64,000 nt of DNA from Deltaproteobacteria bacterium IMCC39524 (GTDB lineage Bacteria; Desulfobacterota; Desulfuromonadia; Desulfuromonadales; BM103): the NCBI GenBank assembly GCA_029667085.1, contig JARUHJ010000004.1:310001-374000 (forward strand). The letters are read 5' to 3'. The notes under the pieces are model-generated. The model made no database searches. It worked only from the letters and a program-made list of their open reading frames with translations, and was not told the origin of the DNA. A program made the translations under genes and the position numbers. Of this stretch, positions 56,576-57,331 are shown one piece after another. The number at the start of each line of letters is the position of its first letter. The first letter of the stretch is position 1.

Positions 56576-56680
56576 CTGCTACTAAACCACTCTCTTCACA
56601 TCCCAACAAATCCCTCTCCAAAAGTAGCAATCCCACGACGTCATGATATGCTCGAGAGATTACAAGTGAAAGGATCTCTC

Positions 56681-57331
56681 ATGACTTTGAACAACACATT
56701 ACAGGAAATGAAACGTAAATCCCTGTCACGTATCCCCCCGGAAGCGGCGGCGATCATGGCACACACGACAAAGCAGCTCGAGCTCTCAGGCATTGTCGAC
56801 AAAGCCCTCGCCAAAGGCGACAAAGCCCCATCTTTCGAGCTACAGGACTGGCAGGGGAACAGCTACAGCTCAGCTCGTCTACTGGCCCAGGGGCCTTTAA
56901 TCCTCCACTTTTATCGAGGCTCCTGGTGACCTTATTGCAACGCGGAGCTGGAAGCTCTGCAAACGATCTACGATGCCGTTACTGACCTTGGCGCCAACCT
57001 GCTGGCAATATCTCCATCGAGACCGGAGTTTGCTCGCCAGATCGTCAAAAAGAACAACCTCTCCATCCCGGTTCTCTGCGATCAGAATAACGCCATTGCC
57101 GACAAGTTTCGATTGGTCTTCACCGTTCCGGACGATTTGCGGGAAATTTATCTCTCCTTCGGAATCGATCTCGAACGTCATAACGCCGATCCAAGCTGGA
57201 CATTGCCGATGCCTGCCCGCTACCTCATCGGTAAAGATGGTGTGATCATTGATGCCGATATCAGTGTTGATCATACAACCCGGTCTGAACCCGGGGACCT
57301 TTTGAAAAAGCTGGAGGAAATCAATCCATAG
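56681..57331 (+). CDS. Selenocysteine-containing peroxiredoxin-like protein (UGA at codon 83)
   Basis: An AhpC/TSA-like thioredoxin-fold protein of 216 residues is interrupted by one in-frame TGA at 56927-56929. The residues before it (HFYRGSW) and after it (PYCNAELEAL) form the RGSWCPYCN active site of this family with TGA in place of the first cysteine, so it reads UxxC: Sec83 and C86. No other stop occurs before TAG at 57329. A hairpin with a GGA loop lies 20 bases after the TGA. The ATG at 56681 has AAAGGA six bases upstream. It probably reduces peroxides or protein thiols. Standard gene calling splits it into two short pieces. Confidence 0.85.
56942..56960 (+). promoter_or_regulatory. 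Bacterial SECIS hairpin for the peroxiredoxin
   Basis: GCGGAGCT (56942-56949) pairs with AGCTCTGC (56953-56960) over eight base pairs, with one G-U pair, around a GGA loop. The loop begins 20 bases after the UGA. Published bacterial SECIS rules ask for a loop 16-37 bases from the UGA with a G among its first two bases; both are met. Confidence 0.7.

Follow-up and report, generated by a model that had tools for sequence, protein, structure and literature searches.

Deltaproteobacteria bacterium IMCC39524 encodes, in the 64,000-nucleotide stretch of DNA analysed here (the window), a peroxiredoxin-like reading frame that is crossed by a TGA codon. Is this TGA a stop that breaks the gene, or is it translated, and if it is translated as selenocysteine (Sec), what kind of protein results? 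Judged from the gene and its relatives, the mid-gene TGA is almost certainly read as Sec, which would give a complete peroxiredoxin-fold redox protein. We consider it highly probable that Sec is inserted at codon 83 and that Sec83 forms a redox pair with Cys86.

Gene structure and domain match

The predicted gene for a Sec-containing, peroxiredoxin-fold UxxC redox protein of 216 amino acids lies on the forward strand at 56681-57331, with a TAG stop at 57329-57331. The sole interruption of its 216 codons is the TGA at codon 83 (56927-56929), in the motif RGSW-U-PYC; the initial annotation was therefore right to describe an otherwise intact frame with a single TGA at the first Cys of RGSWCPYC. 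A TGC (56936-56938) encodes Cys86, the second residue of the UxxC motif. A Shine-Dalgarno-like AAAGGA (56669-56674, same strand) stands 6 nt upstream of the ATG, and AAAGG is present in all five genes compared, which are the window gene and its four nearest relatives, in keeping with the good ribosome site that had been noted. There is an alternative in-frame ATG at 56648; the start at 56681 is supported because the MTL start is common to the gene and the four nearest relatives.

Both sides of the TGA belong to the same family and the same frame, as had been proposed. Read from 56648, the part before the TGA matches profile positions 2-37 of the AhpC-TSA domain PF00578 (E 4.5e-4, 20.6 bits), which on its own falls below the gathering score of 26 bits, and the part after the TGA continues in register with it over profile positions 39-122 (E 1.2e-13). 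The read-through frame reaches 92.3 bits, above the gathering score. Ten models of NCBIfam release 20.0 match the protein and none of the ten reaches its cut-off, so that annotation as two fragments is probable; standard gene finding would probably split the gene in two, the outcome expected by the initial annotation.

Conservation of the TGA codon

The TGA is conserved at the aligned codon among relatives. In the 136 genomes of the source order, 33 have a match (E 1e-25 or better in this count) at 35 places, and TGA is found at 34 of these and Cys at one (genome G002). The 277 genomes of the source class, which include those of the order, yield 59 with a match at 61 places (55 TGA, six Cys), so the family is patchy. 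A sample of 395 genomes from the phylum gave 29 with a match, at 30 places, of which 29 have a TGA inside the match; the 23 phylum places not seen before comprise 21 with TGA in W-U-P-Y/F-C, one with WUVFC and one degraded copy. The nearest relative is from Deltaproteobacteria bacterium IMCC39146 and is 94% identical; G016, probably the same genome, was counted with it once.

Altogether 82 rows carry the motif, 76 with TGA and six with Cys. L157 (degraded) and L159 (WUVFC) lie outside the motif and are not among them; L105 and L146 are duplicates of L106 and L110, and the distant second type L076 was left out. From a set of 24 loci, L009 (probably the same genome as L054) and the 18 distant loci L015-L032 enter no count. 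In a 93-row alignment, codon 83 is TGA in 76 rows and Cys in all 17 others. Cys occupies this place in the five nearest Cys homologues from genome contigs and in six plasmid homologues, the latter being six of 101 plasmid records, used in the tree and the Cys count and not in the SECIS test. The suggested alignment with Cys homologues thus gave a positive answer, and in relatives the TGA is conserved and not drifting to TGG or TGC, which would have pointed to a random nonsense mutation.

Compared with L054, the closest relative, dN/dS is 0.121 before the TGA and 0.121 after it, and 0.128 after it when codons 84-95 are removed. By these ratios the frame past the TGA is under purifying selection as protein, as on the upstream side.

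A single origin of Sec was considered and rejected, as the tree needs ten Sec/Cys changes over the 93 rows, five of them forced by well-supported branches; the changes were counted without direction and several long branches are unsure. Individual copies depart from the common pattern. The homologue L159 (G646:C12:27389-28006) has WUVFC instead of WUPYC, with the TGA at the same codon. Extra stops occur in L157 (G521) and L094 (G067), the latter with a TAA before the motif, and mark decayed genes or assembly errors.

The hairpin downstream of the TGA

A putative bacterial SECIS hairpin occupies 56942-56960 of the forward strand, where 56942-56949 pairs with 56953-56960 in an 8-bp stem that closes a GGA loop (56950-56952), at -12.5 kcal/mol. 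The stem begins 12 nt and the loop 20 nt after the TGA; the initial annotation had placed a hairpin with a GG-containing loop 20 bases after it. Published criteria for bacterial SECIS elements ask for a loop of 3-9 nt with a G in the first two positions, 16-37 nt after the TGA, on a stem of at least 4 bp with an MFE of -7.5 or lower (PMC13188914, Fig. 2 legend). The hairpin lies within these limits. When the 45 nt after the codon were folded by MFE, 69 of 76 Sec genes also lay within them and the other seven outside, whereas not one of 11 Cys homologues did so (L010-L014 and six members of the class). The SECIS search that had been suggested was thus positive.

Hairpin energy alone was rejected as proof of Sec. 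Dinucleotide shuffles folded as well in 8 of 200 and 4 of 200 cases (two lengths); when the gene was recoded synonymously, 176 of 2000 versions had a hairpin within the limits. By energy alone the hairpin is moderately unusual and weak as proof, and since such a hairpin is not rare, the case for Sec rests on comparison with relatives, where the evidence is strong.

This comparison is clearest at synonymous sites. In nine Sec orthologues, which are the window gene and eight others at 95-40% identity to its protein, codons 89-93 do not differ in any of 180 pairs, and codons for the same residue agree in 226 of 252 cases in codons 88-94 versus 1547 of 3444 outside codons 78-95. In six Cys homologues the corresponding figures are 19 of 59 and 349 of 1101. 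Pair counts are consistent with this picture: in 42 distinct hairpins of the window type, 96.4% of the pair cells form, versus 92.8% in shuffled and 31-49% in slid alignments. These counts lean to the window type, because only window-like hairpins, 46 of the 76 from Sec genes, were taken into the alignment used (A4); L152 and L154 are of this type and were left out of it. Covariation is thin, as one of the eight stem pairs changed on both sides, from GC (30) to CG (8), mostly in related genomes, and the number of two-sided pair changes and of pair types was not above that of shuffles (470 of 500 as high).

The Sec genes of another family in the class have a different stem at this place; all 20 of them form six of six pairs, and the loop has G in its second position. 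L144, which belongs elsewhere in the phylum, forms five pairs of this stem. Cys copies of that other family form 5, 5 and 6 pairs (L116 has all six), and a fourth copy, of a neighbouring family, forms four.

Selenocysteine decoding machinery

The source genome (3.78 Mb, 99.99% complete) carries selA, selB and selD next to one another on contig C2, where a tRNA-Sec with anticodon tca (UCA) is also encoded. All four of the genes selA, selB, selC and selD, whose absence had been named as evidence against Sec, are therefore present. The selD gene (L041:1501-2424) itself has an in-frame TGA, at residue 11 of the stretch read, and the selenophosphate synthetase of this genome is probably a selenoprotein too. 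As conserved anatomy and machinery coincide, we infer SelB-dependent insertion: SelB with Sec-tRNA(UCA) would bind the hairpin just past the UGA and so place Sec at codon 83.

Among the 32 genomes of the order with the Sec form, selB is found in 31 and selA in 31; G132 (87% complete) has no selB match and G070 (70% complete) no selA match, and the selA match of G066 contains a TAA. Five of the six genomes with the Cys form keep selA and selB, the exception being G151 (78% complete), which matches neither; the Cys form is therefore not explained only by loss of Sec decoding. Cys versions occur in a mostly-Sec genus at L113, L115 and L116 (genomes G177, G171 and G180, which keep selA and selB), and the former SECIS stem is mismatched in two of the three, which suggests recent changes from Sec to Cys. 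The homologue at L059 (G007:C248:7858-8499) is followed on its own strand, after about 0.5 kb, by selA and selB.

Can the TGA be explained without Sec? Pseudogenes are usually recognised by a stop within the frame, and copies with extra stops do exist in the family (L157, and L094 with its TAA). A nonsense mutation or an assembly error that split the gene would not be expected to recur at one codon in almost every genome of the order that has the gene, to be followed by a frame in which dN/dS is as low as before it, and to come with synonymous sites that are frozen behind the codon in the nine TGA genes and not in the six Cys homologues. On these three grounds the pseudogene reading was discarded, and we regard it as practically negligible. 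Translation of the TGA as another residue, Trp or Cys, by general read-through or a changed code is a different matter. TGA for Trp is a known recoding, and here the TGA directly follows a TGG Trp codon. However, the residue that replaces it in relatives is invariably Cys, a SECIS-like hairpin lies downstream and the machinery for Sec is complete, which together leave this explanation extremely improbable.

Predicted fold and probable redox centre

The predicted model of the protein (pLDDT 94.3) has the solved structure of AhpE as its best match (Z 21.3, 1.4 A over 152 residues), followed by Bcp4 and BcpB; these peroxiredoxin folds match with Z of about 20-21 over about 150 residues. In a profile alignment with 2cx3, 5epf and 2ywn, Sec83 falls on Ser/Thr and Cys86 on the conserved Cys, which we take to be the peroxidatic Cys, whereas alignment with ResA puts Sec83 on the first Cys of CxxC. 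The place three residues before the peroxidatic Cys, Thr/Ser in peroxiredoxins proper, is here taken by Sec83. By alignment, Sec83 is the first position of a thioredoxin/ResA-type UxxC and not a replacement of the peroxidatic Cys. The initial annotation, which had Sec at the active-site Cys of a peroxiredoxin, holds for the fold and for an active site in the thioredoxin sense, but its Sec is not at the peroxidatic position, with which Cys86 aligns. On the model, the protein would be a peroxiredoxin-fold UxxC oxidoreductase, where "peroxiredoxin" names the fold.

Every one of the 93 rows has Cys or Sec at position 83 and Cys at position 86, and no other column holds at least six Cys. Since these are the only columns conserved in this way, Sec83 and Cys86 form the only redox pair kept by the family, and an intramolecular Se-S bond between them may be inferred. 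The protein is probably a thiol oxidoreductase, in which Sec83 and Cys86 most likely alternate between the selenol/thiol and the Se-S state: the attack on a disulfide, peroxide or oxidised partner would come from Sec83 and the resolution of the intermediate from Cys86, and a thioredoxin-like system would re-reduce the pair. The protein is probably cytoplasmic, as no signal peptide is evident by eye. A conserved gene partner was not found in 12 neighbourhoods read by eye; the neighbourhood in the window (an ABC substrate-binding protein, hisI/hisG and a DUF4019-like gene) recurs in part, among these 12 loci, only at L054-L057.

If Sec is real, the protein might still act mainly as a true peroxidase, with Cys86 or Sec83 as the peroxidatic residue, and not as a disulfide reductase. 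The AhpC-TSA score, the closeness of the fold to the 1-Cys peroxiredoxin AhpE and to Bcp/BcpB, and the alignment of Cys86 with the conserved Cys of the three solved structures all speak for such an activity. However, the Thr/Ser of the T/SxxC motif helps to activate the peroxidatic Cys in peroxiredoxins, and it is exactly this residue that Sec replaces; moreover, UxxC is the arrangement of thioredoxin and ResA, and four TxxU AhpC-TSA genes are already present in the genome. We give a peroxidase role a serious chance, somewhat below even.

Five of the ten AhpC-TSA matches in the source genome carry a TGA, the window gene included. The other four (L003, L005, L006 and L008, on contigs C1 and C3) are TxxU-like, with the motifs DFTPGU, DFTPGU, DFSSGU and IYTPAU, and three of them have a signal-like hydrophobic N-terminus by eye. 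In these four Sec takes the peroxidatic place, opposite to the UxxC of the window gene. Two Sec Prx-like genes that differ in subtype stand one behind the other at L104 (G123:C120). The first of them, like L076 and L135, has a different hairpin and, by eye, a signal-like N-terminus.

Comparison with known selenoprotein families

From its sequence, the gene fits a known broad kind, the UxxC Prx-like selenoproteins of PF00578. A 2026 review lists 119 prokaryotic selenoprotein families or subfamilies (PMC13188914), and its Table 1 includes a Prx-like thiol:disulfide oxidoreductase of PF00578 with UxxC/UxxU and WP_010940744.1 as representative. Prx-like thiol:disulfide oxidoreductases have been given as predicted selenoproteins of the Deltaproteobacteria Geobacter, Syntrophus and Desulfotalea (PMC1794560), and a Prx-like 1 family as pfam00578 with UxxC (PMC2398784). 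The protein resembles the Prx-like thiol:disulfide oxidoreductase in domain and motif, on which the likeness is drawn. A peroxiredoxin-like family protein (AhpC/TSA), listed in the same Table 1 as cd02970 with UxxS and cited there to a paper on an Olavius algarvensis symbiont (PMC13188914), is elsewhere given as pfam13911 (PMC9312934). It shares its product name with many plasmid Cys homologues of our protein; however, its motif is UxxS, whereas all 76 Sec rows here have UxxC, and at an E of 0.01 PF13911 is not among the Pfam matches of the protein.

In the portion of the 119-family catalogue covered, a clearly separate row for the present subfamily was not found (PMC13188914), and in the open-licence literature covered no description of it was found beyond the broad catalogue rows. 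Whether it forms a peroxiredoxin-fold subfamily of its own, mostly with Sec, in which Sec in place of Thr makes a thioredoxin-like Se-S centre in a peroxiredoxin scaffold, and which is patchy over one class and reaches other classes of the phylum, we regard as evenly balanced. With both Sec and Cys versions in a single class, the family forms a natural series in which the reasons for retaining Sec could be studied.

The Sec peroxiredoxin with TxxU, also a PF00578 entry of that table (PMC13188914), belongs to the same Pfam family and has its counterparts in the four TxxU-like genes of the source genome. There Sec is peroxidatic, whereas Sec83 stands three residues earlier, on the place of Thr/Ser; that the Sec positions of TXXU and UXXC differ has been pointed out before (PMC1914089, Fig. 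3 legend). A single genome thus combines TxxU and UxxC, the two placements of Sec, in genes that share one Pfam domain. In eukaryotes, selenoprotein U has been assigned a Prx-like2 domain (PMC3473315). By description it is like the present family in combining a peroxiredoxin-like fold with switches between Sec and Cys among lineages, but it uses the eukaryotic SECIS system.
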